Of a stretch of 22,721 nt of DNA, positions 3,076-17,572 are shown piece by piece. The DNA lies in the IMG/VR virus record IMGVR_UViG_3300045741_000498, positions 1-22,721 of that record; one strand, 5' to 3'. The notes below the pieces were generated by a model, which saw only the letters and a program-made list of their open reading frames with translations, was not told the DNA's origin and made no database searches. The stretch comes from a virus. The position numbers and the translations under genes are program-made. Each line of letters begins with the position of its first letter. Position 1 is the stretch's first letter.

Positions 3076-3414
3076 TTAAACGTCTTTATCTACGGTCTTT
3101 AATTTCTCTTTAAGCATATTTTTAAATATTGGGCTCAAATTATCAAGCGGTTTATTACAAGCACCACAAACAACATCACCTTGTTGTAATTTGGGGCGCT
3201 CTTCTTGTCCACATTTACCACATTTAACTGCAAATGGTTTTGATTGTTTTTGTTTAAATTGTTTTGACATTTTCATTTGATTTTTTATGAATGGTGTCAA
3301 ATTTGTTAATTCTCCATCACAAGAAGAACAATAAACTTTATTATCTTTTGGATCAAGATATGGTTCTTGAATCTTACCACAACCTTTATTAGTACAAAAA
3401 GTAGAGAATGCCAT
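3076..3414 (-). CDS. Duplicated zinc-ribbon protein, 112 aa
   Basis: The protein is two copies of one unit. Copy 1 has Cys7, Cys12, Cys29 and Cys32; copy 2 has Cys65, Cys68, Cys83 and Cys86. Each ends in a matching helix (ELTNLTPFIKNQMK and PLDNLSPIFKNMLK). The pattern is that of zinc ribbons, which bind nucleic acid or protein. Its start shares one base with the DnaJ stop (TAATG) and a GGAAA lies upstream, so it is co-translated with DnaJ. The primase core follows 16 bases later. It might work with either neighbour: as a separate zinc module for the primase, which lacks one, or as a partner of the chaperone. Its cysteine spacing is not that of the CHC2 primase finger, so the primase link is only suggestive. 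Confidence 0.8.
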   Translation of the reverse strand: MAFSTFCTNKGCGKIQEPYLDPKDNKVYCSSCDGELTNLTPFIKNQMKMSKQFKQKQSKPFAVKCGKCGQEERPKLQQGDVVCGACNKPLDNLSPIFKNMLKEKLKTVDKDV

Positions 3415-4358
3415 TATATATTTCCATTATCAAGATAGTTTATCAAATCATTAATTTTTTCTGGATAATCTACATTAAGAATTACCCTTTGATTTCCAAT
3501 ACGATTAACGCCTACATGCGGAATAATTACTTCATCTTTGTTTTTAGATTGCGATTTTATTACAATATCAGTTTCTCCTAATATAGTTTTAACTTTTTTA
3601 TTACAACCTTTTAATGCTTCTAATAAAGAAATTTGTAAATTACAAACTATATCTTGGCCATCTAATTTAAGACCATCTTCCGCAGACACATGCACGCACA
3701 GATGCACGTCTGTGTTTTGATCTAATGGGCCGAAACTGGTAACAAAATGCCCCATGCCACCTATTCTTAATACATTGCCATTTTGAATGCCACCTGGAAT
3801 TGTTACATTAATAGATGTTTCTGCATCTAAAATTCCTTTTGAATTGCATGTTGTACATGGTTTTGATTCGCTTTTACCAAAACATTTGTCACATGTTTGT
3901 ATAAAAATCATGTGACCCTGTTGGCCGGTTACTTGTCCCCTACCACCACATTTAACACAGCCATTATTTAGTGAAGTTTCACCGTGGCCATTACAATCTT
4001 TACATTTTGTTTGTCTATTAAATTTAATATCTTTCTTGCAACCTAATATTGATTCCTTAAAAGATATTGATGCATTTAAATTAATATTATCTGCTTGGTG
4101 TATTGTTTGATTTCCAAATGGATTAAATGGATTTGATCTATTTGTTGGTTGCCAGTGCATCTCCTCACGATCTGTACTTTTGCCACTAGAAACTACTTGA
4201 TAGGCTTCATTAATTTTTTTGAATTTATCTTCGGCTCCAGATTCTTTATTTATATCTGGATGATACTTTTTCGTAAGTTCTCTATATTTTTTCTTCGCCT
4301 CTTCTGGCGTTGACGTTTGTGGAATTTCTAATATTGAATACGCTTCTTTAATATTCAT
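3414..4358 (-). CDS. dnaJ: DnaJ/Hsp40 co-chaperone
   Basis: A complete type I DnaJ. The J domain occupies about 1-60 with the HPD motif at 33-35, which triggers ATP hydrolysis by DnaK. A short N/F-rich linker follows (about 70-85). The four-repeat zinc domain has CKDCNGHG (from 119), CVKCGGRG (134), CDKCFGKS (156) and CTTCNSKG (168); the third and fourth repeats have lost one glycine of the CxxCxGxG pattern. The C-terminal peptide-binding domains run to 314, starting with VTIPGGIQNGNVLRIGGMG. It is somewhat shorter than E. coli DnaJ (376) because the Gly/Phe linker is short. The start overlaps the RuvC-like stop (ATGA). It would recruit host DnaK to phage substrates; no DnaK gene is in the window. 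Confidence 0.95.
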   Translation of the reverse strand: MNIKEAYSILEIPQTSTPEEAKKKYRELTKKYHPDINKESGAEDKFKKINEAYQVVSSGKSTDREEMHWQPTNRSNPFNPFGNQTIHQADNINLNASISFKESILGCKKDIKFNRQTKCKDCNGHGETSLNNGCVKCGGRGQVTGQQGHMIFIQTCDKCFGKSESKPCTTCNSKGILDAETSINVTIPGGIQNGNVLRIGGMGHFVTSFGPLDQNTDVHLCVHVSAEDGLKLDGQDIVCNLQISLLEALKGCNKKVKTILGETDIVIKSQSKNKDEVIIPHVGVNRIGNQRVILNVDYPEKINDLINYLDNGNI

Positions 4359-4909
4359 TTCTTCTTGCCCTTACGCTTTATTTGGCCAGTCAAAAGTTTT
4401 GCAAAATATAAAGCAACAGCCATACCATCGGCTTTATCAAAATTTTCAACTTTTATTTTACCTTTTTTATTGTATTCATAAGGAAATGTAATTCCTAAAT
4501 GTTTGGATACAAGCTCTGGCATATCTTCTTTTTTTGGCAAATTAGAATTTAATTTTAAACCATGTCTAATTGACATTACATTAAATAGTTCTGGAGATTT
4601 ATTTAAATAATCAAAAGCACATAACCCAATCATTCTATTAAATGTAGTAAGCATTATAATTGTTTTTGCCGTACTTTTACCCTGCATAAATTGAATAATA
4701 TCTTCTATTCCAATATGATCTGGTTTAACATCTTCTATTATTTTTTTAATCTTATCTCTAGTATCTACAATTCTCTCTATAATAGAACCAGTTTTAAGTG
4801 GCTTTAAATATCCTGCATTAACAAATTCTATATTATTATCTTTAATATCCAATACACAATATCCAATAGTCGTACTTGAAACATCTATACCTAATATTCT
4901 TTTAATCAT
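4355..4909 (-). CDS. ruvC: RuvC-like Holliday junction resolvase
   Basis: A 184-residue RNase H-fold nuclease of the RuvC family, expected to cut four-way junctions made by UvsX-driven recombination. The acidic active-site residues are in place: Asp9 in GIDVSSTTIGY, Glu69 in HIGIED, and Asp158/Asp161 in DKADGMAVALY. The C-terminus is very basic (KRKGKKK). Length is close to bacterial RuvC (173). The ATG has no Shine-Dalgarno upstream, and a later start would remove Asp9, so the start is secure although unusual. An extended -10 element lies so close that the mRNA could begin at or next to the AUG. An intrinsic terminator separates it from the SSB gene, and DnaJ overlaps its 3' end. Confidence 0.9.
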   Translation of the reverse strand: MIKRILGIDVSSTTIGYCVLDIKDNNIEFVNAGYLKPLKTGSIIERIVDTRDKIKKIIEDVKPDHIGIEDIIQFMQGKSTAKTIIMLTTFNRMIGLCAFDYLNKSPELFNVMSIRHGLKLNSNLPKKEDMPELVSKHLGITFPYEYNKKGKIKVENFDKADGMAVALYFAKLLTGQIKRKGKKK

Positions 4910-4916
4910 GTTAGGT

Positions 4917-4925
4917 AATATAACA
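4917..4925 (-). promoter_or_regulatory. Candidate extended -10 promoter for ruvC operon
   Basis: On the minus strand TGTTATATT reads as an extended -10 (TG-N-TATATT). No -35 is evident; the expected position falls inside the SSB terminator hairpin. By usual spacing transcription would start at about 4910-4909, directly at the RuvC ATG, giving a leaderless message and accounting for the missing Shine-Dalgarno. Very similar elements precede dnaE and the Cas4-like gene. Confidence 0.4.
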
Positions 4926-4934
4926 AGAAAATAG

Positions 4935-4967
4935 AAAAGGGCCCAAGAATCAACTTGAGCCCCTTTT
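4935..4967 (-). terminator. Rho-independent terminator after the SSB gene
   Basis: On the minus strand AAAAGGGGCTCAAG, a 6-base loop and CTTGGGCCCTTTT form a stem of 13 pairs with one bulged G and one G-U pair, followed by a T-rich tail (TTTTCTATTTTC). It starts about 18 bases after the SSB stop. It is the only GC-rich hairpin plus T-run I found, and would give the SSB message its own 3' end while limiting read-through to ruvC and dnaJ. An A-run on one side and a T-run on the other may make it work in both directions. Confidence 0.85.
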
Positions 4968-4985
4968 ATTATAAGCTATATTTAT

Positions 4986-5705
4986 TTATACAGCTGGCTC
5001 TTCAGCATAAGCTGGGAAAGCCTCATTCATATCCTCATCATCAGACATACTGACAGCAGGCGCCTTTGCAGCAACCTTTGCAGTTTTCTTGCTTGCAGTT
5101 CCAGTAGTTGCATCACCAGAAACCCCATTAATTTTATCAATTCTAGATTGAACGTTTTCTGCAGAAGGTGGAGTGCAGCGTCTCTTAAGATCATCTAAAT
5201 CTGCACTATCTTTTAATTGCTGATCGGCAGCAGATAATGGTTCTTTAGAGATTGGTTGAACAGAATAATAACCAGTTGCTCCACCATTTTTATCGACAAC
5301 AATATCGATATCATATTTAGTTGGATCTCCCCAACGTTGAGTGTTTCTTGCTAATTTTCTAATTTGAGAAAATACTGCAAAAGAAATATCAAGAATCTTG
5401 TAAGTTCCAGTCTTGCGATCTATTACACCGTAAAACCAACGTGGCTTTGCTTTATCGCCAGTTTCACAAAGTGGACAGCTTCCATGTAACTGAGAACAGC
5501 CTACTTTTTGTCCAAAGTCTTTTGGATTATTTGCATCCTTCTTGTACTTATGAACTAAATATTGAAATGGGGCTGTAACAAGTCTCAATTCGTTAGAGCC
5601 CTCTCCTAAGCGAAGAAACAAATCCTTATTATTTCCCCCTTTTTTATTTCCTTCACCACCAAAAACGTCGTCACTATAAGAAATTTCACCAAATGTTTGT
5701 GCCAT
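4986..5705 (-). CDS. gp32-like single-stranded DNA-binding protein
   Basis: A 239-residue phage SSB of the T4 gp32 type, which coats single-stranded DNA and organises replisome and recombinase loading. The zinc site is visible in the core as Cys70, His74, Cys77 and Cys80 (VGCSQLHGSCPLC), followed by the aromatic/basic segment KPRWFYGVIDR and KILDIS, as in gp32 relatives. A low-complexity Ala/Lys/Thr linker (about 195-215) leads to a strongly acidic C-terminal tail (SDDEDMNEAF), the usual SSB protein-recruitment element. It is shorter than T4 gp32 (301). GGAG lies 6 bases before the ATG. The gene has its own A-rich leader, possible promoter and a terminator, suggesting a separate, abundant transcript. 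Confidence 0.88.
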   Translation of the reverse strand: MAQTFGEISYSDDVFGGEGNKKGGNNKDLFLRLGEGSNELRLVTAPFQYLVHKYKKDANNPKDFGQKVGCSQLHGSCPLCETGDKAKPRWFYGVIDRKTGTYKILDISFAVFSQIRKLARNTQRWGDPTKYDIDIVVDKNGGATGYYSVQPISKEPLSAADQQLKDSADLDDLKRRCTPPSAENVQSRIDKINGVSGDATTGTASKKTAKVAAKAPAVSMSDDEDMNEAFPAYAEEPAV

Positions 5706-5786
5706 TGTATTCTCCGTATGTTATTTATCTTTTGTACTTAAAGTACTTTTTCTTTTTAACAAAATCGATTATTTATCTTATACACA
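5706..5786 (-). promoter_or_regulatory. SSB leader with direct repeats, palindrome and possible promoter
   Basis: This gap precedes the SSB start. On the minus strand TGTGTATAAG places a possible -10 (TATAAG, 5782-5777) at its far end. The 11-mer AAGATAAATAA occurs exactly twice (5779-5769 and 5731-5721). Between them is the palindrome GTACTTTAAGTAC (5746-5734). The rest is almost all A/G/T with little pairing potential, ending in CGGAGAATACA before the ATG. An unstructured A-rich leader next to a small hairpin is what T4 gene 32 uses for translational self-repression; applying that here is inference. Confidence 0.45.
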
Positions 5787-6077
5787 TTAGCGTGTAAATT
5801 TAACTAAACGAGTTCTAGTATGATCTGTAGTTCTTACGAATCTTACGCCGATTCCTCGGTTACGAATTCTATTAACTACTTTATTTATTACTAATCTGAG
5901 GGCCCCTGGACTTGCTGGCAAAAGAGTTCTTTGTTTTTTGCTCAAAACTCTATTAAGAGCACTTCCCAATTCACTCATAGTACCTACCCAAGTTCCTTCA
6001 GATTGTCTTTCTACTACCGAATTAATTCCACGAAAAACAACACTTTCTACGTTGTTTGTTACACTATTATATGCCAT
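5787..6077 (-). CDS. Small winged-helix-like DNA-binding protein, 96 aa
   Basis: The 96-residue product is basic, especially at the C-terminus (RFVRTTDHTRTRLVKFTR). Its layout, WVGTMSELGSAL, then LLPASPGALRLVINKVV, then RGIGVRFVRT, resembles the winged-helix domain found at the C-terminus of many phage and plasmid primase-helicase proteins (W.GT..EL, LP.SP..L, GI.V.F, R). Here it stands alone. Start: GTG at 6089 and ATG at 6077 are both in frame; I prefer ATG 6077 because GTGAG lies 7 bases upstream. It sits between SSB and RecA, so a role in origin or fork binding is reasonable. The fold similarity is from memory of consensus patterns, and the function is unproven. Confidence 0.7.
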   Translation of the reverse strand: MAYNSVTNNVESVVFRGINSVVERQSEGTWVGTMSELGSALNRVLSKKQRTLLPASPGALRLVINKVVNRIRNRGIGVRFVRTTDHTRTRLVKFTR

Positions 6078-6099
6078 TTTATAACTCACTTTCTTACTT

Positions 6100-6441
6100 T
6101 TATTTAACTAAAGTTGATGGTTTATTTGCATTAAAAACTAAGCTTCTAATGCTATGAATTTTATGCCAAGGAAACATCATATCTAAAATTGATTCTTTAG
6201 GAGTACTCTCAACAATATCAACAAAAGTTTTGCTAATAACGTCTTCTGATAAATCAGAAAAGAAACCTTTTACTGCAATAAATCCGTCAAGTAAATCTGG
6301 TTTATCAACAGATATAAAACTTTTTAATGATTTTGTTTTTCCTGAATTATCTTCTAGAAGAACCAAATAACGTGGTTTTTTTGAAACTTGACCTACTTGA
6401 GGTATTCCGGTTACACTCACTCCAAAATCTTTTTCAGACAT
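6100..6441 (-). CDS. Hypothetical protein next to recA, 113 aa
   Basis: I do not recognise this protein. The frame is open from 6492, but that part lies inside the RecA gene; the start at ATG 6441 (MSEKDFGVSV) overlaps the RecA stop by 8 bases and has AAAGAAAG just upstream. The protein has an N-terminal beta-like segment (RYLVLLEDNSGKTKSLKSF), a helical centre and a distinctive MMFPWHKIHSIRSLVF near the C-terminus. No cysteines, membrane segment or catalytic motif are visible. Co-translation with RecA suggests a recombination accessory role, but that rests on position only. Confidence 0.7.
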   Translation of the reverse strand: MSEKDFGVSVTGIPQVGQVSKKPRYLVLLEDNSGKTKSLKSFISVDKPDLLDGFIAVKGFFSDLSEDVISKTFVDIVESTPKESILDMMFPWHKIHSIRSLVFNANKPSTLVK

Positions 6442-7600
6442 CTTTCTTTGCTTTCTTTTTAGATTCTTTTGATTCATTTTCACGAGCAGCAATTTTCTCT
6501 GCTTGCTCTTTTAATTTTTCTTCTAATTTAGAGTCGCGAGCTTCGCTAATTTTAACTGCTAATTCTTTATATAATTCTGGTTCATCTTTAATGGCATCAC
6601 AAAATTTTCCAAAACCAACCCATTTACGCTCTCCAAATTCATGAGAGACTGCCGTTGGTTTTGTTACCACATTGTAGTCCAATGCCAATTTAGCAATTTC
6701 TAAGTGCTTATCTATAACGCCAGTTCCAAAATTTACTTTAAACTCGCACTTGCGCGGCCAAGGACCGAACTTAGATTTCTCAATGGTGGCACGAATAGTG
6801 GCACCGATTCTATCTTCATTTTCATCAAGAACTTTTGCATCAGCTCTATTAACTGATTCAAAATAAATATTTGCTGACAAAAAGTGAGCATAACTATTAC
6901 CACCAGAAAATGTATGATCAGAACCATATGGATCCATACCATCTTTTTTATGATTAATAAATATAAATGGAACTTGTGCTTTATTAGCATCTAATGATAA
7001 TTTACGAAATGTGGTTGTAAGAAATCTAGCAAGCAAAGACATATTCATCTTACCAACTCTAGAAATATCTTCACCAGGAGGCATAATAGCTCCCAATGAA
7101 TCTAATACAACCATATTGACATTTAATTCGCCAGCCATAATTAAGTCTAATAAACCATCTTTAGTTTTACCAACTAATTCATGTGTTTTCTTATCTTCTT
7201 TAGGAACTCCTAAAATCATTTCAAAACACTTTCGACCAATTACAGCCGTTTCTTGTTCTACTAAAATAATACGAGATGTATCTAATCCTAAAGATTCTGC
7301 CCAATTAGGATCAAAAGTTCCTTCAGCATCAATAAACATTTGTTGTGCAGATGGGTCAGCGTCTTGCGCTTCCTTCATTGCCAACATTGCCATTAAAGTT
7401 TTTCCAGATCCAGTTGGACCATAATATTGAAATAATCTACCCTTTGGTAAGCCACCCGCTGATAATGCATTATCTAATGCTAAAGAACCAGTTGATGTTG
7501 CAGGTAATTTTTTACCCACAGTTTCGTGGGCCATTTTGTAATCTAATTGTTCGTCTGACTCCGCATAGCTTTTGAAAAAAGCGTCTAATTTACTTGACAT
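6434..7600 (-). CDS. recA/uvsX: RecA/UvsX recombinase
   Basis: A 388-residue RecA-family strand-exchange ATPase. Walker A GPTGSGKT is at 61-68, the catalytic Glu at about 93 (DAEGTFD), Walker B VVLD at 164-167, and the DNA-binding L2 region includes the FSGGNSYAHF segment, equivalent to TTGGNALKF of RecA. An N-terminal helix for filament contact (1-35) and a Lys/Glu-rich C-terminal tail (350-388) flank the core. The length suits both bacterial RecA (~350) and T4 UvsX (391); the L2 sequence INHKKDGMDPYG is phage-like. AGGAGA lies just before the ATG. It follows the putative UvsY-like gene and overlaps the 113-residue gene by 8 bases. It would drive recombination-dependent replication together with SSB, SbcC and RuvC. 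Confidence 0.95.
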   Translation of the reverse strand: MSSKLDAFFKSYAESDEQLDYKMAHETVGKKLPATSTGSLALDNALSAGGLPKGRLFQYYGPTGSGKTLMAMLAMKEAQDADPSAQQMFIDAEGTFDPNWAESLGLDTSRIILVEQETAVIGRKCFEMILGVPKEDKKTHELVGKTKDGLLDLIMAGELNVNMVVLDSLGAIMPPGEDISRVGKMNMSLLARFLTTTFRKLSLDANKAQVPFIFINHKKDGMDPYGSDHTFSGGNSYAHFLSANIYFESVNRADAKVLDENEDRIGATIRATIEKSKFGPWPRKCEFKVNFGTGVIDKHLEIAKLALDYNVVTKPTAVSHEFGERKWVGFGKFCDAIKDEPELYKELAVKISEARDSKLEEKLKEQAEKIAARENESKESKKKAKKDV

Positions 7601-7611
7601 TTTATCTCCTG

Positions 7612-8124
7612 TTATTCGTAGCCTTGGGGAACTTGCTCATTTGTCGTGCCTACACTATATCCGAGGATCGTGCGTCTGAGGCCCGCCGCAATATCTTTAA
7701 AATGATGATGCGCCTTGATTAAAAGATCATATTTTTTTTCAAGGTATAATTTACTTCCCTTTGCGCTAGCTAATTTAATTTGCACTATTTCTACTTCGGG
7801 CGATACTTCTGCTGCCCATTTTTTCATGTCTAATGTAGTTTTAGAGCCATCTGGCGCCTTATACTCTAAAGACACTTTATTCTTTGTGCTTGATACTTTT
7901 GATTCTAAATATCCAACTGTTCTTACCATTTTAGCTAGATATTCTGTTAATATGTCTGCTCCTCTTAATGCCTGTTGTTGCAATAATTCAGCGTGAGCCA
8001 AATCAATTGCATCAATATCTCTTAAATTATCCAACACTTTTTGAATTTCTGATAGGTCGAAATTTTGGAAATCAACCTCCATTTCATTACCCAATAATTC
8101 ACCAAGTCTTACTTGTTGGCTCAT
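7612..8124 (-). CDS. Putative UvsY-like recombination mediator, 170 aa
   Basis: The product is 170 residues from ATG 8124, chosen because GAAGGAAG lies 5 bases upstream; the longer frame to 8172 has no such site. The protein is mainly helical, with a middle strand-rich insert (SLEYKAPDGSKTTLDMKKW) and a C-terminal helix LIKAHHHFKDIAAGLRRTIL. T4 UvsY has a similar order: a basic helix, an aromatic insert, then a long C-terminal helical part with a DAIKSRGFAIK motif. Position directly upstream of RecA/UvsX fits a mediator that loads the recombinase on SSB-coated DNA. Sequence similarity is weak, so this is a suggestion. The alternative is an unrelated conserved phage protein. Confidence 0.75.
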   Translation of the reverse strand: MSQQVRLGELLGNEMEVDFQNFDLSEIQKVLDNLRDIDAIDLAHAELLQQQALRGADILTEYLAKMVRTVGYLESKVSSTKNKVSLEYKAPDGSKTTLDMKKWAAEVSPEVEIVQIKLASAKGSKLYLEKKYDLLIKAHHHFKDIAAGLRRTILGYSVGTTNEQVPQGYE

Positions 8125-8182
8125 CTTAACTTCCTTCTGTAATATACAATATATCGAACTTTTTCTCGACAAAAATAATTAT

Positions 8183-8482
8183 TTAACCCTTAAGTTTTTC
8201 TTTAATTTCTTGTGCCAGAGCATCAACCTGTTGATGTATCATTCTAAGGTGTTGATGCTGCATTAAACTCATTAAAAATAAGAATACTTCAAAACTAGTT
8301 CTAAATTTAGATGGTGGTTTTAAGAAAATAATTATACCATTTGCATCTGTTTCAAATAAATCAATAAATAAATCTTCGCCTTTATTTGTAGCAGTAGTAT
8401 ATGACTTAACAATTTTTTGGTACATATCCCATTCATCATCAGTCATTTCAAGCTTTTTATTATTAACTACTCGTATGGACAT
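8183..8482 (-). CDS. Conserved-looking hypothetical protein, 99 aa
   Basis: A 99-residue protein that I cannot assign. It has an acidic front (MTDDEWDMYQKIVKSY), a compact beta-like part (LFETDANGIIIFLKPPSKF) and a long helix (FEVFLFLMSLMQHQHLRMIHQQVDAL) that is amphipathic to hydrophobic but not a clear membrane segment. GAGGTAAGTT precedes the ATG. It lies between the zinc-ribbon protein and the UvsY-like candidate in the recombination run, so it may belong to that complex. The 58-base gap after it carries no obvious terminator. Confidence 0.75.
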   Translation of the reverse strand: MSIRVVNNKKLEMTDDEWDMYQKIVKSYTTATNKGEDLFIDLFETDANGIIIFLKPPSKFRTSFEVFLFLMSLMQHQHLRMIHQQVDALAQEIKEKLKG

Positions 8483-8499
8483 AACTTACCTCGTCCCAA

Positions 8500-9357
8500 T
8501 TAAGATCTAGAAAATGAACCCTTTGCCCCTGTTGAGACATTTCGTCTAGCTTCTGACACTTTAGCTTGTAATCTTTGTAAATGTGCTAAATCTTTTGCGT
8601 TTGCATTTGCTCCAGAACCGCCTGATTTTCCTTGTGTAGCGGCGGCCATATTAGCTTGTAATATAAACTCACCGCCTGGAAGATCATCATCCATTCCATC
8701 TGAATCTAATGAAGAAGCAACTTCACCACCAGCAATCATTTGTTGAAATTCTGCAACAGCTTCTGGATCGGCTTGTTCTAACATATCTGCTGATATCATC
8801 ATACTACCACCGCCAGCTGTCATACCTTGCGAGCCGGTTTTTTTGATTTGTGCTGCCACTTTTTTAAGATATTCAGTCTTCTCTGCTGGAGATTGAAATG
8901 TAGGCGAGGCATTTGGTCCTTGCTGTTGTTTAGAGGGTTTCTTTATGGCCTCTGCTCTTTCAAAGAAAGAGCTTGTTCTCTCTTCTGATTGTATCTTTTC
9001 TGCAACAACTTCCTCTTCACCATTTTCAGTTTGAACTTTAACAGTAAATTTAGCCGCTTCTTTTCGTTTCAAAAAGTCTTTATCGTCTTCAACTTTCTTT
9101 AATTCTTTTACCATTTCTTTGGGCATATAATTACCAATTAATGGCGAATCAGTTTTTATATAATTATGATTTGATAACATCCAATCATTTACTTGAGTAG
9201 GATACGCTTGTAATGCATCCATTGTTTCACGAAGAGTTGTAAATAAATTCTTTAAATGTTCTTCCATAATATGCTTACCGCAAAATGGGCAAACATTTAT
9301 ATCTATGGCGTGAGTCCATTGTGGATTAATTTCTATTTCACAAGATATACATTTCAT
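8500..9357 (-). CDS. N-terminal zinc-ribbon protein, 285 aa
   Basis: The N-terminus is a zinc ribbon with Cys3, Cys6, Cys23 and Cys26 (CISC...CPFC). A helical part (about 28-100) follows. The rest is low-complexity and probably disordered: Gln/Pro, Gly/Ser/Met and Asp-rich stretches such as SDGMDDDLPGGEF, ending in an Arg/Ser-rich tail. The start overlaps the stop of the upstream 140-residue gene (ATGA). I do not recognise a family with known function. A zinc ribbon fused to a long flexible, partly acidic tail fits a nucleic-acid-binding scaffold or a transcription or replication accessory, but this is inference. Confidence 0.78.
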   Translation of the reverse strand: MKCISCEIEINPQWTHAIDINVCPFCGKHIMEEHLKNLFTTLRETMDALQAYPTQVNDWMLSNHNYIKTDSPLIGNYMPKEMVKELKKVEDDKDFLKRKEAAKFTVKVQTENGEEEVVAEKIQSEERTSSFFERAEAIKKPSKQQQGPNASPTFQSPAEKTEYLKKVAAQIKKTGSQGMTAGGGSMMISADMLEQADPEAVAEFQQMIAGGEVASSLDSDGMDDDLPGGEFILQANMAAATQGKSGGSGANANAKDLAHLQRLQAKVSEARRNVSTGAKGSFSRS

Positions 9358-9776
9358 TTTTTACTCGCTCTCCAAAATGATGGAGCCTTTCGGGAACTCG
9401 CCGTTTTATTTAAAATACGTTTTTTATTTAAAAAATCTATTGCTTCGCTACTTAATTCATCACTTATATACCCAGACAATTCTTGACTCAATTTATCAAT
9501 TTTATCGGAAGATGTAGATTTAATATTTTCTACAATTTGCCTAATACGATAAATGCTTAATGGTAAAGCATTTTTGTCAGAAATATAATCAGTTGTAATA
9601 AAACCTAAAGCAGATTGTAAATCATTATCTTTATTTAATTGAGAGTATTCATATAGTTTTTTAAGCCTTAATTCGATTGAAGTTGGCAACATATCAGAAT
9701 CAATTAAATCAGAAGATCTAGCTAAATCTTTAATATTACCTCTATCAGTTTTTTGTTTAACGGATCTGATTGCCAT
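9354..9776 (-). CDS. Hypothetical protein, 140 aa
   Basis: I do not recognise this protein. It is 140 residues, largely helical by composition, with basic ends (MAIRSVKQKTDRG and SSRKAPSFWRASKK) and an acidic middle. A central segment (LPLSIYRIRQIVENIKS) is the only strongly patterned part. GAGG lies 5 bases before the ATG, and its stop overlaps the start of the zinc-ribbon gene by 4 bases. There is no membrane segment, cysteine or known motif. Confidence 0.72.
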   Translation of the reverse strand: MAIRSVKQKTDRGNIKDLARSSDLIDSDMLPTSIELRLKKLYEYSQLNKDNDLQSALGFITTDYISDKNALPLSIYRIRQIVENIKSTSSDKIDKLSQELSGYISDELSSEAIDFLNKKRILNKTASSRKAPSFWRASKK

Positions 9777-9786
9777 TTAGCCTCAA

Positions 9787-10404
9787 TTATTTTCTAGATT
9801 TTTTCTTTGGTTTCTTTTTTGGTTTTGATTTTACTTTAAGTGTTTTTTTAGATGTTTCTAATCCTTCAACATATCTTTTTAATGAGGCTAAATTCTCATC
9901 ACTAAATTTCATAATAACATCTACTTCATTATTGGATTTATTTAATAGTCCATTTCTAACCATACATTCAACCAAAAAATTAACTTCTTTTAGCTTAGCC
10001 TCTTTTAATTTAAGACTTTCTAATTGAGCGTCTGGAAGTACAACTGGAGCTGGAGATGGAGTTGTAGCTGCAAATGGAATTAATTCTGACTCAACGGGAA
10101 CTTTTAAAATATCTGCAACGGGATATGGGCCCGCTTTTTTAACCTTGCCGCCCTCATTTATATCGTACTCTTGATATGATAAAGTTTTGCTATCCCACTT
10201 TCTTGGCACAGAAGAGCGTGAATTTATTCCAAAATAAATAGATGGTTTTGAATTTTCAAAAGCTTTATGTAAATTTACATAAGGATTCATATCTAAATTT
10301 TTAAAAGTAATAACATGAAGCATCATAAAATTAACTATTTTAGTTAAGCACTTAACAATAAATAAAACGAAAGAACAGTATTTTTCTTTTAAAAATTTCA
10401 ACAT
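9787..10404 (-). CDS. Hypothetical protein with lysine-rich tail, 205 aa
   Basis: The function is unknown. The first 35 residues (KEKYCSFVLFIVKCLTKIV) are hydrophobic and could be a membrane anchor, or a non-coding extension if translation really begins at one of the internal ATGs (residues 27, 28 or 39). I keep ATG 10404 because it shares a base with the upstream stop (TAATG) and has GGGGA upstream, whereas the internal ATGs have no ribosome binding site. The middle has a proline-rich stretch (TTPSPAPVVLPD). The C-terminus is a strongly basic tail (KSKPKKKPKKKSRK), suggesting nucleic acid binding. It follows the HTH protein gene. Confidence 0.68.
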   Translation of the reverse strand: MLKFLKEKYCSFVLFIVKCLTKIVNFMMLHVITFKNLDMNPYVNLHKAFENSKPSIYFGINSRSSVPRKWDSKTLSYQEYDINEGGKVKKAGPYPVADILKVPVESELIPFAATTPSPAPVVLPDAQLESLKLKEAKLKEVNFLVECMVRNGLLNKSNNEVDVIMKFSDENLASLKRYVEGLETSKKTLKVKSKPKKKPKKKSRK

Positions 10405-11291
10405 TATTTGTTCCCCAAATTCTTTAATGACTTTCTTCCTCTTTTTGGTTTTTCAACTATTTCTGTTACACGAGATACTGATTCAATTTCTTTTTGTGTT
10501 GGCTGAAATGTAGATACATTAAACACAGAAGCAGATGATGTATTATTTACTAATGACATATTAACGTCTGCAATAGAATTTGAATAATTAAAATTATTGC
10601 CGAAGGCGGAATTACTTGAGCCGGTATAGTTGAGTTGTTGTGGAGTTAAATCAACGCTTCGCATAACTACGCCTTCAGCAATATTATCATATGTTTTAAC
10701 GCCACCAAGATATGTAGGTGGCACGGTAATTACAGAAGAAATGTCTTTCATCAACTCTTCTACTTCTGGAGCGTCTGTAGGATTAACAAAACCACCGCCT
10801 TCTGCCCCAACTTTATGAATTTCTTCAACCAATTCTTGAGCTGTTAAATCATCTGATTTAGAAACTAAATCATCCAAAGCTTCAGCGTCTGAAGTAACAA
10901 ACATATTTGGCTTTGGTTTTTCACCCTTTGGTTTTAAAAATTGCTTAAAATGATTTTGAACTTCTTCTGATTTTGGTTTTACTCTAGAATATTTAGGACT
11001 ATCTGTATTTCCTTTAACTTTTAAAGTAAAGTTAGACAAAATCCATGCAGTAAAATCTTCAATAGCATATTGATTTTTACTAAACTCCACTGTCTTTTTC
11101 AAAATTACAGACATTATATCGCTATCTTGAATGTTGCTCATTGGTTGCTCCGAGGTACTTTCTTCTGGCACAATAATTGTACCTGAATCAGATTGATAAG
11201 CATTAACAAGACGTGGATCGCCAGCTTTAAACCAACGCCATGCCGTTAAATAAGAAATTCCTTGTTTATCTGCCCAATCTTTTAACTTCAT
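10404..11291 (-). CDS. MerR/IS607-like HTH protein with AT-hook-like tail, 295 aa
   Basis: The N-terminal 45 residues (DWADKQGISYLTAWRWFKAG, then SDSGTIIVPEE) match the excisionase/MerR-type HTH-wing seen at the start of IS607-type resolvases, but no recombinase domain follows. The remaining 250 residues are unassigned: a helical part (55-100), a Lys/Pro region (PKGEKPKPN), an acidic stretch (AEALDDLVSKSDD) and an Asn/Ser-rich segment (about 215-260). Near the C-terminus EKPKRGRKSL resembles an AT-hook. GAGGA is 8 bases upstream of the ATG. It heads the DnaE-to-RecA gene run and sits next to a repeat-rich gap it might bind. A DNA-binding regulator or replication-initiation factor is plausible; no function is established. 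Confidence 0.75.
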   Translation of the reverse strand: MKLKDWADKQGISYLTAWRWFKAGDPRLVNAYQSDSGTIIVPEESTSEQPMSNIQDSDIMSVILKKTVEFSKNQYAIEDFTAWILSNFTLKVKGNTDSPKYSRVKPKSEEVQNHFKQFLKPKGEKPKPNMFVTSDAEALDDLVSKSDDLTAQELVEEIHKVGAEGGGFVNPTDAPEVEELMKDISSVITVPPTYLGGVKTYDNIAEGVVMRSVDLTPQQLNYTGSSNSAFGNNFNYSNSIADVNMSLVNNTSSASVFNVSTFQPTQKEIESVSRVTEIVEKPKRGRKSLKNLGNK

Positions 11292-11403
11292 AATTATATT
11301 CCTCGTTATGCCTATATTGTCTATACAAATAATATCATTTATATCATTTTGCGCTTTATTGCGGTATTTTAGACAATTTTATTATTATCTGATATCATAT
11401 ATA
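11292..11403 (-). promoter_or_regulatory. Regulatory gap upstream of the HTH gene: direct and inverted repeats
   Basis: The 112-base gap after dnaE holds three structured elements. An 8-base inverted repeat, ATTGTCTA at 11316-11323 and TAGACAAT at 11370-11377, flanks most of it. Between the arms a 9-mer, ATATCATTT, is repeated in tandem at 11332-11340 and 11341-11349. On the minus strand TGATATAAA overlaps this and could be an extended -10. At the dnaE stop a 7-base inverted repeat (CTGATAT/ATATCAG, about 11389-11407) is present, with no T-run after it. This looks like an operator/promoter region. Confidence 0.45.
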
Positions 11404-14400
11404 TCAGTCATTATTCTCTTCTTCATCTAAATCAATCAATCCCTCATCATAAAGGGCGTCTTCTATTTCTTCCAATAAATGTTGAGGATTATTGGTTTTT
11501 TCCCAATTTTTATCATCAGGAATAGTCTCTTTTGTTTTAGCTTTAGCTTCTTTCAAATTTATTTTTTTTGCTTTCAAATCGGGTGGTAAAGCTGGAATCA
11601 TAGCTAAATCATATAAATCATCAAGAATAACACCCATATCATCTTCATAAGAATTTGTATTACCAGAAAAGCTTAAAGCTAAACCACTATCAAACTCAGC
11701 CTTACTATTTACTTGCTTAATTCTGTCTTGCACCTGTTTCCAACGATCTGGAAATATAGTGCAAGAACATTGATCTCCATTCTTATCTTCAATAATAGCT
11801 TTAACCATACGTTGGCCATAATATTTACTAGTTTCTTTTTTGACAGGAAATTCAAAAAAATCTCTAATAATGCCTTTTACAGGAGAAACTTTTGTTTTAT
11901 CTTTTGATTTTTTAATTTCATAAACGCCAATATGATTATCTTTAAAAAATTTGCCATAAGCATCTGCCGGCTTACATGCAAAAGACTCTCCCAAATAATG
12001 TTGCTCAAGAGCATATAACTCAGATAACTTCCATTCTGGCTCTGATGGCCAAGGATAAACGAACTCTTCAGTTTTAGGATCATGTTTCTTTAACCAAACT
12101 TGTAATTTTTTTCTATAATCAGAGCAATATAAAAATATAAGTTTTCTTGAAATGTTAAATGAATCCATTGCGCCTGTTGCAGCTAAAGCTTGAATATTAT
12201 TAGCTCTAACTTTTTTAGAATCTACTCTTGTCATAAAATCAAAAAAACTTTTAAAAGGTCTTTTTTGAATAATATCTTTAATAGATTCATCTCCAACAGA
12301 TTTAAGTGCATCTAGCCCTGTTAATAACTTATTTCCATCAGAAATAGTATAAGTCAATTCTGATGAATTAATATCAGGTGGCAATATTTTAACTTTATGT
12401 TTTCTTAATTCTTTCTTTATTTTATCAATATTGCCCTTTGCATCTGGGGCATTTGACTTAACTTCTGCCATCAAATTAGCTAATAAGAATTCAATTGGAT
12501 AATGTCCTTTAAGATAAGCCGTTTTAAATCCTATCATAGAATAAAGTACGGCATGAGAAACGTTAAAACCATATCCTTGGAATTTATCAACGACTTCATC
12601 CCAAATACGTTTTGCTATATCTTCTTGTACATTATTTTTTACAGCATCATTAATAAATTCAGTTCTCCACTGTTGTGCCTTCTTAGGGTTCTTTCCCTTT
12701 TCTTTTGTTAATTTTCTCAAACGGTCAGCAGAATGTAAGCTCCACCCAGCAATATCTTGGGCTAAATACATTAAACACTCTTCATATAAACCGAATCCAT
12801 ATGTGCTATTAAAGGCTCTACCCAATTTTGGATGAAGTAATGCCATTTTTCTTTCACCATTACGAGTCTTTATGAAATCATTGCGCATATCACGAGCAGA
12901 TGGGCGAGCCAAAGCATTTATATTTGCTAGGTCATTTATATTTCCCGGCTTGATTCTTTTACATAGATCTATAGTGCCCGCGCTTGTTCCCAACTGGAAT
13001 ACACAGAACGTATCTCCGCTTGTAATTAAATCATATGATTCTTTATCATAAACATCATAATCCAATATTTCTGGTGGAACTTCTTTTCCTCTAGATTTAA
13101 TTATCTTATAAGTTTCACCTATGGTGTCAAGGGTAGATAATCCAAGAGTATCCATCTTAACTAAGCCATTTTCTTCTACTTTATCTTTGTCATATTCAAT
13201 GGCAAGGGCTCCGTCTTTATCTTTTCTAAGTGGAACAAGTCCAGTTAATGGGCGAGCAGAAATAACAATACCACCAGCATGTGTAGACCATGCCCTATAC
13301 TTTCCACATATGTTTTTATATTTTGCAAATTCTGGATATTTTTTACAATATTCTGAAAACAAAGGAATTTTAACTAAAGCATCATCAATAGAATGAATAT
13401 CTGCCGGAATACAATCAGCCACATCATTGCCTATTTTAACAGCCTCTTCTTTTGAACCGCCAAGTTCACATGCTCTTGCAATATCTCTAACATAAACTTT
13501 AGGAGTAATAGTATTAACATTTGATACGTGAGCTACATGCTCTTCTCCATATTTTTTACGCAAATACGCCTGCACACGTGGGCGCCCGCTTGGAGCAAAA
13601 TCTGTATCAATATCTGGAAAACTTGATTTTTCCTTATTATGAAATCTGGCAAAAATCAAATTATATTTGATTGGATCTGCTTGATGAATTCCTAATAAAA
13701 ATCCAATTAAAGATCCTCCAACAGATCCTCTTCCATCACCAACGGCAATATCATTAGCTCTTGCCCAATTAATAAAATCGGCAACAATAAGCATATAACT
13801 GGAAAAACCATGAAACTCAATAACATCTAGCTCTTCAATTAATCTTTGCTGATATTGAGTTCTATTTTCTTCATTCAAACCCTTAATACGAACATCGAAA
13901 TATTTTTCGCAATGATATCTTAAAAATTGTTTATCTTCATCTAGCAATTGTATCGAGTTATCTTGTTTAGAAACCCAATCAATGAAATCTGTGTAGTCTG
14001 GCTCGTCTTTGACAGGAAATATAGGAAGCTCTTTTCCAGAAGGATTTGAAAACTTCGGATCAATCCAATCAGGCTTTTCACACAAATTAGCAAAATAAAC
14101 GCTGTTCGCACAAATTTCTTCAGCAAATTCTTCGCCATAGTTCCTCGAAAAAAATGATTTAATTTCATCACCAGACTTTAAATAAAAATCTGATACATTA
14201 TACTTTAATCTAAAATTAGAATGTTTTGGCTGATGAGATCCAATTGCTAAAAATACATCATGAGTATCCGCATCTTCTTTAGAAAGATAGTGCGCATTAC
14301 AAGCTGGAACAACTTTTACATTATGCGCTTTTGCTAGGGCAGTCAATCGTGCATTAAGAAATTGTTGATCTATTTCATCATTGAAGATATTAGAGCCGCG

Positions 14401-14937
14401 CTTCATATTATTTGGCTGAATTTCAACTCCTAAATTTTCACCAAACAACATTTTTAATCGCAATAATGTTTGTCCCGCTTCATCAAACTTTTTATTCATT
14501 AAGAGCTGGCTTATAATACCATTACCACATGCAGTTAAACAAATCAAACCCTCAGTATATTGAGCTAATAGTTTCCAATCTACAATTGGATAAACTCTTT
14601 TTCCCAAAAAGGATCCTTGATCAAAAGCTTTTTTATTAATGGTTAATAGATTTTTATAACCAACCGCATTTTTTGCTAATAATACTATGTGTCTAAATTT
14701 TTCGTTAATATTAGACGCATCATCAACAAAATAACATTCACAACCAATTATTAATTTAACGCCAGTATCTCTAGATGCCTTTAAAGCATCCCAGGCGGCG
14801 GCAAGAGTTCCATGATCAGTTACAGCTATTGCAGACTGTCCAAGCTCTTTTGCCTTTTGAAAAAGAGCTTTAGTTGAAATAAGCGAATCAAGAATTGAAA
14901 AATCAGTTTGGTTGTGCAATGAAACAAAATCGGTCAT
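11404..14937 (-). CDS. dnaE: DNA polymerase III alpha subunit (DnaE-type replicase)
   Basis: A full-length 1177-residue C-family polymerase (E. coli DnaE 1160), presumably the phage replicase. The PHP domain spans about 1-270, with TDHG at 40-43, Glu67, His83, NAHYL near 214-218 and His226; the first HxH motif reads HNQ (8-10), losing one metal ligand. The palm has GDGRGSVGGSL (400-410), the catalytic pair Asp442/Asp444 in PDIDTDF, and Asp596 in GLVKMDTLGL. THAGG (552-556), the FNVSHAVLYS thumb/finger motif, tandem HhH-type regions and a C-terminal OB fold (about 1035-1090) follow in the usual order. The acidic C-terminal tail has a QHLLEEI segment that might contact a clamp. No proofreading exonuclease is fused to it. 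AGGAAA precedes the ATG. T4-like recombination genes beside a bacterial-type replicase make this a mosaic replication block. Confidence 0.97.
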   Translation of the reverse strand: MTDFVSLHNQTDFSILDSLISTKALFQKAKELGQSAIAVTDHGTLAAAWDALKASRDTGVKLIIGCECYFVDDASNINEKFRHIVLLAKNAVGYKNLLTINKKAFDQGSFLGKRVYPIVDWKLLAQYTEGLICLTACGNGIISQLLMNKKFDEAGQTLLRLKMLFGENLGVEIQPNNMKRGSNIFNDEIDQQFLNARLTALAKAHNVKVVPACNAHYLSKEDADTHDVFLAIGSHQPKHSNFRLKYNVSDFYLKSGDEIKSFFSRNYGEEFAEEICANSVYFANLCEKPDWIDPKFSNPSGKELPIFPVKDEPDYTDFIDWVSKQDNSIQLLDEDKQFLRYHCEKYFDVRIKGLNEENRTQYQQRLIEELDVIEFHGFSSYMLIVADFINWARANDIAVGDGRGSVGGSLIGFLLGIHQADPIKYNLIFARFHNKEKSSFPDIDTDFAPSGRPRVQAYLRKKYGEEHVAHVSNVNTITPKVYVRDIARACELGGSKEEAVKIGNDVADCIPADIHSIDDALVKIPLFSEYCKKYPEFAKYKNICGKYRAWSTHAGGIVISARPLTGLVPLRKDKDGALAIEYDKDKVEENGLVKMDTLGLSTLDTIGETYKIIKSRGKEVPPEILDYDVYDKESYDLITSGDTFCVFQLGTSAGTIDLCKRIKPGNINDLANINALARPSARDMRNDFIKTRNGERKMALLHPKLGRAFNSTYGFGLYEECLMYLAQDIAGWSLHSADRLRKLTKEKGKNPKKAQQWRTEFINDAVKNNVQEDIAKRIWDEVVDKFQGYGFNVSHAVLYSMIGFKTAYLKGHYPIEFLLANLMAEVKSNAPDAKGNIDKIKKELRKHKVKILPPDINSSELTYTISDGNKLLTGLDALKSVGDESIKDIIQKRPFKSFFDFMTRVDSKKVRANNIQALAATGAMDSFNISRKLIFLYCSDYRKKLQVWLKKHDPKTEEFVYPWPSEPEWKLSELYALEQHYLGESFACKPADAYGKFFKDNHIGVYEIKKSKDKTKVSPVKGIIRDFFEFPVKKETSKYYGQRMVKAIIEDKNGDQCSCTIFPDRWKQVQDRIKQVNSKAEFDSGLALSFSGNTNSYEDDMGVILDDLYDLAMIPALPPDLKAKKINLKEAKAKTKETIPDDKNWEKTNNPQHLLEEIEDALYDEGLIDLDEEENND

Positions 14938-15048
14938 ATTACTTTCCTGTACAGTTGAGTATTATAACAAAAATCATATCTGTCCCATATTATAATAGGG
15001 CACTATAATCTAAAAATAGATCACGTATGTTTGCTAGGGAATACGGCG
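14938..15048 (-). promoter_or_regulatory. dnaE promoter region (extended -10 TGTTATAAT)
   Basis: The minus strand shows TGTTATAAT at 14969-14961, an extended -10 with a perfect TATAAT. Start of transcription would fall near 14954, leaving a leader of about 17 bases that contains AGGAAA. No good -35 is seen. A second TATAAT (14994-14989) lies inside TATTATAATA, flanked by CCC and GGG, which could form a small hairpin. Further upstream ATCTATTTTTAGAT can fold as a 5-bp hairpin. No clear terminator follows the M41-like gene. Confidence 0.5.
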
Positions 15049-15714
15049 TTAAAGTGACAATATAGATTTAATATCTTTTTCGTCAAGTGGTTCAAAATTA
15101 CCATATAACTTATCGTTAATTTTGAATTTTTTCTTCCAAAAATCTTTATTTTTAGTTTTTTTGGTTAAAATTTTTCTTAATTCTAATAAAGAAAATCTTT
15201 TCTTTTTAAATAAACCATGAGCAATTAATGTAATTGCATTCCAATTATTTTGTAATTCTATATCTATTTGTTTTAATATCTTTTGTTTGTATTTAAATCT
15301 TTTAATACCAGGTTTTGATAATTTATATTTATCAAATAATTTTCCTGCCTCTAAAAAATCACGAGAAGATCCTTCTTTTAAAAACATTGGAAATTTATTA
15401 GATCCAGATATTAATTTGAAATAATGTTTTTCTGCAACAAGACCGGCATAAGATAATCCTATTTCTGCGTGTAACCTATTGTTACGCAATACAGGATCTT
15501 TAATTTCAGATAGAGCTGGCGGATCATAATGAAGCTCGCCCTCAATTCTTTTTGATCTTTTATCTACAAAAACTAAAACTGATATAATATCTAAATTATG
15601 TAATAAGCCATAAATAAGATGACCGGCCTCATGATATGAGGTTGAAATTAATTCATGTGTTTCATAAAATTTTTTTCTAACATCTGCAATAGATCTAGAA
15701 TCACTATTAGACAT
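15049..15714 (-). CDS. Stand-alone M41 (FtsH-type) zinc metalloprotease domain
   Basis: The 221-residue protein has the zinc-protease motif HEAGH at 28-32. Further on is AGLVAEKHYF (about 90-99) and then SSRDFLEAGKLFDKY, where Asp119 aligns with the third zinc ligand of FtsH (the D of NDL..AT). This order and spacing are those of peptidase family M41. The AAA+ ATPase and membrane segments of FtsH are absent, so it cannot unfold substrates by itself. It might act on loose proteins, use a separate unfoldase, or have a regulatory role. The C-terminal 90 residues are Lys-rich and helical. GGAG precedes the ATG, three bases after the upstream stop. It is the last gene before the dnaE promoter gap. 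Confidence 0.8.
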   Translation of the reverse strand: MSNSDSRSIADVRKKFYETHELISTSYHEAGHLIYGLLHNLDIISVLVFVDKRSKRIEGELHYDPPALSEIKDPVLRNNRLHAEIGLSYAGLVAEKHYFKLISGSNKFPMFLKEGSSRDFLEAGKLFDKYKLSKPGIKRFKYKQKILKQIDIELQNNWNAITLIAHGLFKKKRFSLLELRKILTKKTKNKDFWKKKFKINDKLYGNFEPLDEKDIKSILSL

Positions 15715-15717
15715 AAA

Positions 15718-16002
15718 TTACTCCACCTGTTTTAGTAAATCCTCCAAATTAATCATTTTTTGATTACATTCATCTGGTTTATATTTACATTTAACAGTTA
15801 ACCTATCAGATCCTAATGGTCCAGTCAAAGTAAAATCTTTATTATCTACATACAATATGCCAGCCTTAGTAAAGTGAGTAGATTCAATAAACCCCAATTT
15901 AACTAAATTAGTCAAATGATCTTTTGTTAAAGGACGGTCGGTCTTAAATATAATGGCCATTCTTCCACAACAAGCTTGTATATTGAATCTTTCAACTTTC
16001 AT
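15718..16002 (-). CDS. Hypothetical protein, 94 aa
   Basis: I do not recognise this protein. It is 94 residues and looks alpha/beta: a strand-rich N-terminus (FNIQACCGRMAIIFKTDRP), a helix (LTKDHLTNLVKLGF) and strands ending in LTVKCKYKPDECNQ. Four cysteines (CC near 11-12, and two in KCKYKPDEC) could bind metal, but the spacing fits no motif I know. Its start overlaps the preceding stop (ATGA) and its stop provides the ribosome binding region of the M41-like gene. Confidence 0.72.
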   Translation of the reverse strand: MKVERFNIQACCGRMAIIFKTDRPLTKDHLTNLVKLGFIESTHFTKAGILYVDNKDFTLTGPLGSDRLTVKCKYKPDECNQKMINLEDLLKQVE

Positions 16003-16313
16003 TTGTTATCTAAATCAACGCCTTTTCCTTCTAATAAGAAAAGCGCATATTTAATTTTTGCTGTTTGAACTTTAAGTGCATCTCTGTATGGCTCAGAATA
16101 TTCTTTTACTAATTCTTTAGCACCATTTAACTTTACATCAGCATCTTTTTCTTGATCTATTGTATAAATATTACCTTCACAAGTTACTATAATTTTTTTA
16201 AGATCTTCTTCACTTGCTGCATCAGCGGTATCTTTAAACTCTGGCAAACTAACAATTACTTTAGACCATTTTTCTGGAAAAGTAACGGGTGCTTGATTAT
16301 TATTCTTACTCAT
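15999..16313 (-). CDS. Hypothetical protein, 104 aa
   Basis: An unrecognised 104-residue, mostly helical, mildly acidic protein. The segment around 65-95 (YSEPYRDALKVQTAKIKYAL) looks like one long helix that may form a coiled coil. A strong AAGGAGA ribosome binding site lies upstream, beginning right at the trigger-factor stop. The 4-base overlap with the 94-residue gene suggests the two are made in equal amounts. Confidence 0.73.
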   Translation of the reverse strand: MSKNNNQAPVTFPEKWSKVIVSLPEFKDTADAASEEDLKKIIVTCEGNIYTIDQEKDADVKLNGAKELVKEYSEPYRDALKVQTAKIKYALFLLEGKGVDLDNK

Positions 16314-16324
16314 TTATAATCTCC

Positions 16325-17572
16325 TTAATCAACAACTTTAACTAACTTTGATACAAAATCCATAGCATGCTCATCTCTAATTCTAGAGAATAATATTTGC
16401 AAATATCCAGACTTATTCATTTGTTGAATAACTTCGTCTATTGGCTGTTGAACTTGAGTTTTTGCCAAATTACGCTTTATTATTTCAAATATTTCTTGAT
16501 CTGTTAATTGTGCTTCTGGATTATTTTCTCTAACTTTATCCAAAATAAGGGAAAGCTTCACATTTTTTTCTGCCATTTGCAAATATTGTTCTTTATCTGC
16601 ATCTGAAAGAATATCCCAATTTAATTTAGCATTGTGTGTTAAATATTTTGCCTCAGATAATGACATCCAATTTGGAACATTAATAGAAGTAATATCAACT
16701 AACTTATGTGCAATGGTTTCAAATAACTTAACTTTAGCTTTATTTTGCAAAGTTGCATCTGCTGTTCCTTGAACAAAAGTACGCAATTCTTCCATATTAC
16801 TTTTTCCCATTTTTTCTGCAAGAGAATCATCTAATGGACAAGGTGTATTTTTAGATCCCATTGCCAATGTAACTTTTAAATGAACTGTTTGGCCAGATAA
16901 TGAAGCTAATCCGCCTTCTGGAACATGTAAATCAAATTCTCTAGTTTCATTTAGTGCCATACCCAATATTTGATCATCAAAATTAGGTATATTACTCTTA
17001 CCTACTGTAAGTAATTCTCCACTTGCACAAAGATGTGGAACAACTTCTCCATTTAAAGACCCTTCATAATCAAGAATTACATTGTCTCCTAATTGGACAA
17101 AATCAGTATCAGAATAAGGCGCGGCATCTCCCATTCTAACACGAAGCTCTTGCAACATTTTTTCAGTTAATTCAACTGAATTTTCTTCTTCATGTGGCTT
17201 AACAACCTCTAAATCTTTTAATTCAACCAACTCAAAATCTGGTTTGGTGTGTAATTCAAATTCACACGTAAATTTTCCATTAGCAAGCATAAGAGAATTA
17301 AATGTTGGCGCACCATGTGGTCTTAATTTTTTCTCAAAAAGAGTATTGTGATATGCATCCTCTGCTAAAGCTCTTTTTAAAGATTCATCAATTTGAGTTT
17401 TATAATGAACTTGTATTGCATCTAAAGAAGCTTTTCCTGGGCGAAAACCTGGAACAGGAGCTTTTTTAAATTGAGTAATAACATCGCCTCTTTTATTTAA
17501 AATTTCTCCAGCATCAGCGGTATATTGGACTGATAATTTACATGACTCAATTTCTTTAACTTCAATTTGCAT
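16325..17572 (-). CDS. tig: Trigger factor-like ribosome-associated chaperone
   Basis: At 415 residues this is close to full-length bacterial trigger factor (E. coli 432). The N-terminal ribosome-binding domain carries the signature PGFRPGK (41-47), the loop that docks on ribosomal protein L23. A PPIase (FKBP-like) domain lies at about 150-240 (LGDNVILDYEGSLNGE, then GLASLSGQTVHLKVTL), and the C-terminal helical chaperone domain fills 245-415. A complete copy in a phage replication block is unusual. It could displace host trigger factor at the exit tunnel to favour folding of phage proteins. AGAGGG precedes the ATG, and the gene is 10 bases downstream of the Cas4-like gene. Identity is confident; the role in infection is inference. 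Confidence 0.93.
   Translation of the reverse strand: MQIEVKEIESCKLSVQYTADAGEILNKRGDVITQFKKAPVPGFRPGKASLDAIQVHYKTQIDESLKRALAEDAYHNTLFEKKLRPHGAPTFNSLMLANGKFTCEFELHTKPDFELVELKDLEVVKPHEEENSVELTEKMLQELRVRMGDAAPYSDTDFVQLGDNVILDYEGSLNGEVVPHLCASGELLTVGKSNIPNFDDQILGMALNETREFDLHVPEGGLASLSGQTVHLKVTLAMGSKNTPCPLDDSLAEKMGKSNMEELRTFVQGTADATLQNKAKVKLFETIAHKLVDITSINVPNWMSLSEAKYLTHNAKLNWDILSDADKEQYLQMAEKNVKLSLILDKVRENNPEAQLTDQEIFEIIKRNLAKTQVQQPIDEVIQQMNKSGYLQILFSRIRDEHAMDFVSKLVKVVD

Follow-up and report, generated by a model that had tools for sequence, protein, structure and literature searches.

A trigger factor gene fixed beside the DNA polymerase gene in an uncultivated lineage of jumbo tailed phages also carrying DnaJ, peptide deformylase and variable proteases

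The DNA analyzed here, referred to below as the window, is the 22.7-kb linear virus record IMGVR_UViG_3300045741_000498 (22,721 nucleotides), a fragment from an uncultivated lineage of tailed jumbo phages which carries genes encoding a trigger factor (TF), a stand-alone protease domain of the M41 (FtsH) type and a DnaJ protein. TF, DnaJ and a peptide deformylase form the constant part of a gene set present throughout the informative genomes of this lineage, while the M41 protein, ClpP and an AAA ATPase of about 440 amino acids (AAA438) vary. In our judgment, there is an even chance that these genes are the inherited set by which these phages handle newly made proteins. The three open reading frames, all on the minus strand, are intact, and the families to which a preliminary description of the sequence had assigned them were borne out by profiles, motifs and fold. 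The single co-oriented block and the 1177-residue DnaE replicase described there were also recovered, and the block is conserved across relatives.

The TF sequence matches the Pfam families Trigger_N (E = 9e-20), Trigger_C (3.5e-10) and FKBP (1e-4) and passes the cut-off of the NCBI equivalog TIGR00115 "tig" (187.5 bits as against 180.2) over profile positions 10–409 of 410, as expected of the full-length protein which it had been said to be. It was matched by the Escherichia coli TF (1w26) in a profile comparison (6e-28), shares about 23% identity with a clostridial TF, and its ATG is directly preceded by a Shine-Dalgarno-like AGAGGGA sequence. The ribosome-docking motif reads PGFRPGK, as previously claimed, in line with the GFRxGK signature, the residues of which are conserved in 48 TFs with identities down to 31% (G in 48/48, F in 45/48, R in 48/48, G in 47/48, and K in 44/48). 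The pairwise distances between TFs follow those between DnaE proteins (r = 0.93 in 35 genomes, the distances not being independent), and TF therefore appears to be an old resident of these genomes, which fits long vertical inheritance. The genome-contig scan yielded only one bacterial TF, not enough to build a tree of TF origin. The TF matches obtained in a set of 50,697 isolate-phage records came mostly from unannotated faecal or mixed contigs resembling bacterial DNA, judging by their annotation and context, and were not counted.

A total of 41 TF loci were detected in the TF profile scan, and the order of the genes is the same in all of them: TF, the genes encoding two small proteins of 104 and 94 amino acids, M41, and DnaE. 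From TF to M41, the genes mostly lie a few bases apart or overlap by a few bases, and about 100 bases lie between M41 and DnaE; a few records hold inserts of 0.7–1.3 kb in this cluster. TF and both small genes are located ahead of the DNA polymerase gene in the 41 core loci and in six deeper relatives. Conservation in 41/41 loci rules out the possibility that these genes occur by chance or are pseudogenes. The two small genes (15718–16313) persist between TF and DnaE even where M41 is missing. The model of the 94-amino acid protein (pLDDT 86) had no significant match in the PDB, and a TBP-like fold was rejected for it since the matches were not significant.

The M41 protein consists of the protease domain alone, with no fused AAA ATPase domain, in agreement with the preliminary description. 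Since its Pfam M41 score (17.2 bits) is below the gathering score (29.9 bits), it is called M41-like here. Residues H28, E29, and H32 of the HExxH motif and D119, the third (Asp) ligand, are invariant in 45/45 M41 sequences. The AlphaFold model (pLDDT 88) resembles the protease domains of FtsH, YME1, and AFG3L2 with Z scores of 14–17 (maximum 16.9), the next fold class being at Z of about 8 (Foldseek E 3.6e-5 to 1e-4; VIA Z up to 16.9; root mean square deviation 2.6–4.6 over 145–178 residues). Judging from this model, the 221-residue protein is an FtsH-type M41 domain, the fold of which is clear although the sequence signal is weak, and it may act alone. The M41 distances correlate with those of DnaE (r = 0.83; here again, the distances are not independent). 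No M41 match was found in the isolate-phage records, and BFVD includes one orthologue (A0A6J5RJ76), from an uncultured Caudovirales phage, that is 47% identical to the window protein, likewise stands alone, and already bears the name "Peptidase M41 domain" protein.

The description of the third protein as a complete type I DnaJ holds only in part. The J domain (Pfam E = 7e-18), the zinc domain (1e-5) and the C-terminal domain (DnaJ_C, 9e-23) are all present, and the HPD motif (H33, P34, D35) and the eight zinc cysteines, which form four CxxC pairs, are invariant in 21 sequences, but the protein is shorter than a standard DnaJ and scores 192 bits, below the bacterial DnaJ equivalog cut-off of 377 bits. 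On the basis of its sequence, it is assigned a DnaJ-like architecture with class A domains, rather than being a standard bacterial DnaJ. In the 36 DnaJ loci, the order RuvC, DnaJ, zinc ribbon, primase is fixed, and is followed by the sigma gene where the contig reaches far enough.

As regards the co-occurrence of the three families, among 24 large core records, DnaJ was identified in 24, TF in 23, and M41 in 23, the one exception being a contig which stops short of the locus. With 8/8 deeper records, DnaJ was present in all the 32 records tested. A broader scan yielded TFs at 31–38% identity: M41 is kept in loci L200 and L201, whereas TF, both small genes, and DnaE are kept without M41 in L202, L203, and L204, and all these records carry DnaJ. 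TF, deformylase, and DnaJ are present in each of the deeper relatives G033 (428 kb), G034 (116 kb), G035 (435 kb), and G036 (140 kb), DnaJ having been assigned here from BLAST matches and the DnaJ scan of the 8 deeper records. G033 carries M41 but neither ClpP nor AAA438; G034 and G035 carry ClpP and AAA438 but not M41; and G036 carries neither M41 nor AAA438, its ClpP region lying probably beyond the contig. No HExxH protein was found between the 94-amino acid gene and DnaE in the deeper relatives lacking M41. The co-occurrence expected from the preliminary description was thus observed within one lineage and was broken there by M41, and the idea that the three genes form an obligate unit has to be abandoned, since M41 is missing from three deeper relatives and DnaJ belongs to a separate cluster with RuvC, the zinc ribbon, and the primase. 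In G034 (60597–61040) and G035 (377819–378280), a different small protein with a HEAAH motif, possibly another metallopeptidase, is encoded between AAA438 and the deformylase. G019 (392 kb), the most distant DnaJ relative, was considered as a case without TF, M41, ClpP, or deformylase and set aside: its contig stops just before DnaE, which is also missing, and these absences are therefore uninformative.

The likely partners change when the wider block is taken into account, because it adds genes for a peptide deformylase, a pair of ClpPs, and an AAA ATPase, located in relatives at a distance of about 9 to 25 kb upstream of TF. The deformylase, which has a C-terminal SEC-C zinc motif (L144:16060-16599 and orthologues), is present in 23/24 records and in the 4/4 deeper records read. 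Tandem ClpP genes (e.g., L144:942-2126 and L143:838-2033) occur in 23 of the 24 large records; at the positions which we take, from general knowledge of ClpP, to be those of the active site, the catalytic Ser and His are missing from ClpP-A and retained in ClpP-B. AAA438 (L144:9267-10583 and orthologues) is a classic AAA ATPase, the best families of which are PAN and FtsH, and its C-terminus shows a conserved DKYF-like tail, which provides a lead for docking. AAA438 and M41 are both present in nearly all the core records. Wherever the deeper records allow a judgment, AAA438 and ClpP are either both present or both missing, and this covariation, although seen in few records, favours ClpP over M41 as its partner. 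ClpX and ClpA were rejected as phage partners of ClpP, as only weak and scattered AAA_2 matches were obtained, none of which was convincing. Neither HSP70 nor Cpn60 (GroEL) was found in any of the 24 records (0/24 in both cases), and the phage DnaJ would therefore need the host DnaK.

In the light of these gene identities, motifs, and gene orders, it is an evenly balanced proposition that the set is inherited vertically and acts on nascent proteins through deformylase, TF, and DnaJ with the host DnaK, lineage-variable proteases being attached to it. Provided that the genes are expressed and their products cooperate, the deformylase would take off the formyl group; TF would bind the host ribosome through its GFRxGK loop and shield phage nascent chains, the binding, the choice of clients, and the timing being what we infer; and DnaJ, which is encoded beside RuvC and the primase, would hand clients to the host DnaK or steer DnaK to replication complexes. 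The proteases would be variable attachments, M41 acting alone or with an ATPase, and the ClpP pair, with its one dead subunit, acting with the PAN/FtsH-like AAA protein. In bacteria, tig is located near clpP and clpX. This proximity and the fact that TF modulates degradation by ClpXP, E. coli TF enhancing that of the lambda O replication protein, for example (PMC7804408), make a link between TF and ClpP plausible by analogy. A special role in folding the 1177-residue replicase, given as an example in the preliminary description, is conjectural: TF lies upstream of DnaE in every relative, but this also holds for genes unrelated to folding. A more specific version, in which a viral ribosome-exit line (SEC-C deformylase, TF, and DnaJ) occupies host ribosomes during infection, leaving phage proteins to be matured by phage factors, and is coupled to a degradation arm consisting of the active/dead ClpP pair and the PAN/FtsH-type ATPase, is put forward as a tentative and rather doubtful possibility.

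Several points weigh against a nascent-protein set. The FKBP site is partly degenerate: position 178, occupied by Phe in E. coli TF (GEEFEGG), carries Val, Ile, or Leu in most of the phage TFs, and proline isomerase activity may therefore have been lost, while the docking motif was kept. The co-occurrence is confined to one lineage, mirrors descent, and cannot alone show cooperation. Some 12 kb and at least one terminator-like site separate DnaJ from TF, and the 13-pair hairpin between SSB and RuvC suggests that DnaJ is its own transcription unit. The deformylase and ClpP genes are outside the window, which ends at SbcC, and their presence in the window phage is deduced from synteny. Lastly, M41 was not detected by profile in G034, G035, and G036, where a very divergent M41 could have escaped.

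The view that there is no joint function, and that a conserved early/middle region keeps independently useful genes together, is possible but on balance doubtful. The synteny of the block covers clearly unrelated genes (SbcC, kinase, methyltransferase, topoisomerase), and M41 and ClpP were gained or lost independently of TF. However, TF, deformylase, and DnaJ act at successive steps of one bacterial pathway and persist in every informative record. In phage lambda, DnaJ and DnaK function in replication. Similar remodelling here, in which DnaJ (with the host DnaK) and TF would act on the polymerase and on the complexes that initiate phage replication, and not on nascent chains at large, would account for the fixed position of TF upstream of DnaE (41/41) and for the overlap of dnaJ with the RuvC and zinc-ribbon genes, followed by the primase, in 36/36 loci, and the effect of E. 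coli TF on the degradation of lambda O points the same way. This alternative is nevertheless rather unlikely, as the ribosome-docking loop of TF is strongly constrained, which an off-ribosome role would not require, and gene order in phages often reflects the timing of expression rather than membership of a complex.

It is decidedly unlikely that the genes serve host takeover or counter-defence, the phage TF and DnaJ competing with those of the host and thus diverting DnaK, disturbing heat-shock control, or escaping chaperone-dependent sensors. There are precedents, since Rki of phage RB43 is a toxic DnaK-binding protein that stabilises sigma-32 and aids phage growth (PMC3486835), and a DnaJ-dependent defence, bNACHT25, is cited by the authors of the moraphage study (PMC12619734); the lack of a phage DnaK among the 24 records is in keeping with this view. 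Unlike Rki, however, the phage DnaJ has kept both client domains (zinc and C-terminal), a sign that it truly handles clients, and counter-defence genes are usually patchy, whereas TF and DnaJ belong to the core. Least probable is a two-protein FtsH with M41 as the protease half and AAA438 as the ATPase half, which the FtsH-like fold of M41 (Z 16–17), its lack of an ATPase domain, the PAN and FtsH affinities of AAA438, and the joint presence of the two in nearly all core records would fit, but M41 occurs without AAA438 in G033 and AAA438 without M41 in G034 and G035, where it tracks ClpP.

All the 28 predicted genes of the window are on the minus strand, and the products identified include SbcC, a dNMP kinase, a PD-(D/E)XK nuclease, DnaE, RecA, RuvC, a TOPRIM primase, and a sigma-like protein (Table 1). 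Related IMG/VR contigs measure up to 481 kb; among these, G009 (354 kb) has genes for a tail sheath, a terminase, a portal, a baseplate wedge, and a PhuZ-like tubulin, and the first four of these genes identify the lineage as tailed jumbo phages. The isolate-phage collection holds no close isolate, since DnaE of the lineage is at most about 33% identical to isolate-phage proteins among the matches listed.

Table 1. Features of the window, listed by position.
Feature	Coordinates	Strand	Basis and remarks
TOPRIM/DnaG-like primase	2295..3059	-	Downstream of zinc-ribbon gene
Zinc-ribbon protein	3076..3414	-	One base shared with dnaJ; adjoins dnaJ in 36/36 loci
DnaJ (J domain, short G/F region, zinc domain, C-terminal domain), 314 amino acids	3414..4358	-	Pfam, motifs
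RuvC-like resolvase	4355..4909	-	4-nucleotide overlap with dnaJ
Terminator-like hairpin, 13 pairs, between SSB and RuvC-DnaJ	4935..4966	-	Pattern match only
DnaE-type DNA polymerase III alpha, 1177 amino acids	11404..14937	-	Profile match; fixed neighbour of TF cluster
Stand-alone M41 (FtsH-type) zinc peptidase domain, 221 amino acids, HEAGH at 28-32, conserved D119	15049..15714	-	Fold and motif
Conserved 94-amino acid protein, invariant Cys-Cys	15718..16002	-	41/41 loci and deeper relatives; 4-nucleotide overlap with 104-amino acid gene
Conserved 104-amino acid protein, no family match	15999..16313	-	41/41 loci and five deeper relatives; lies between TF and M41
Phage trigger factor (Tig), 415 amino acids, ribosome-binding, FKBP and C-terminal domains	16325..17572	-	Pfam, TIGR00115, motif
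PD-(D/E)XK/Cas4-like nuclease	17582..18514	-	Conserved; adjoins TF directly upstream
SbcC-like ATPase	20410..22632	-	Last gene of the window; relatives' deformylase, AAA and ClpP genes fall past the window

Two GIY-YIG homing-type endonuclease genes (142–837 and 1311–2006), one of which has a NUMOD3 motif, lie on both sides of the sigma-like gene, and similar endonucleases sit at the same spot in some relatives and not in others. In G009, a 934-amino acid protein with the PhuZ-like tubulin match (L160:12932-15736) hints at a spindle in the lineage, DnaE is split into two frames (269996–274096) with an intein-like sequence where they meet, and the terminase and portal frames are oversized too, perhaps through inserts. 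A promoter scan was at chance level (93 found, 96 expected).

Phage-encoded DnaJ (PMC3486835, PMC12619734, PMC7824862), ClpP (PMC7824862), and deformylase (PMC7162821) have been published. The preliminary description held that phage TF is rarely discussed, and a search of open-access full texts, a scope which leaves out subscription papers and supplements, indeed returned no paper on a phage-encoded TF, and the huge-phage paper and three jumbo-phage reviews or surveys do not bring up TF in their main texts. What is new here is that the known phage repertoire of translation and proteostasis genes is extended to TF, fixed beside the polymerase. Translation genes are known in huge phages, whereas little work has addressed phage control of events at the ribosome exit; a lineage with its own TF and with folding, trimming, and degrading proteins suggests that the maturation of viral proteins is managed by the virus itself and not left to the host alone. 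If this is true, a conserved, full-length viral TF beside deformylase and DnaJ would extend the interception of translation by phages to protein folding, and provides a natural experiment on the competition between TFs for ribosomes and on how TF functions when its isomerase site is not intact. Should it fail, the genes would still be a core set of a jumbo-phage lineage without a close isolate in the collection searched.

Like bacterial TF (Tig), the phage protein has three domains, the GFRxGK signature, and a full-length match above the equivalog cut-off, but it is encoded by a virus, the aromatic residue of its FKBP domain is replaced, and its gene lies beside a phage DNA polymerase gene and not beside clpP or clpX. 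The phage M41 protein shares the HExxH motif, the downstream Asp, and the fold of the M41 domains of FtsH, YME1, and AFG3L2, from which it differs in having no AAA module and in its sub-threshold Pfam match. Cyanobacteria and plastids have paired ClpP and ClpR, and the ClpP paralogues of the relatives are likewise paired, one being without the catalytic Ser and His; in this case, however, the pair is encoded by phages and the candidate ATPase is PAN/FtsH-like, rather than ClpX or ClpC. As with RB43 Rki (PMC3486835) and the DnaJ/DnaK proteins of moraphages (PMC12619734), the J-domain protein would be expected to work via DnaK, but Rki is not a generic cochaperone, whereas the zinc and client domains are intact here, and some moraphages also encode DnaK, which was not found in the present lineage. 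In huge phages, peptide deformylase and other factors have been proposed to redirect host translation (PMC7162821), which is close to what is suggested here, whereas TF, DnaJ, and FtsH are absent from the main text of that paper.

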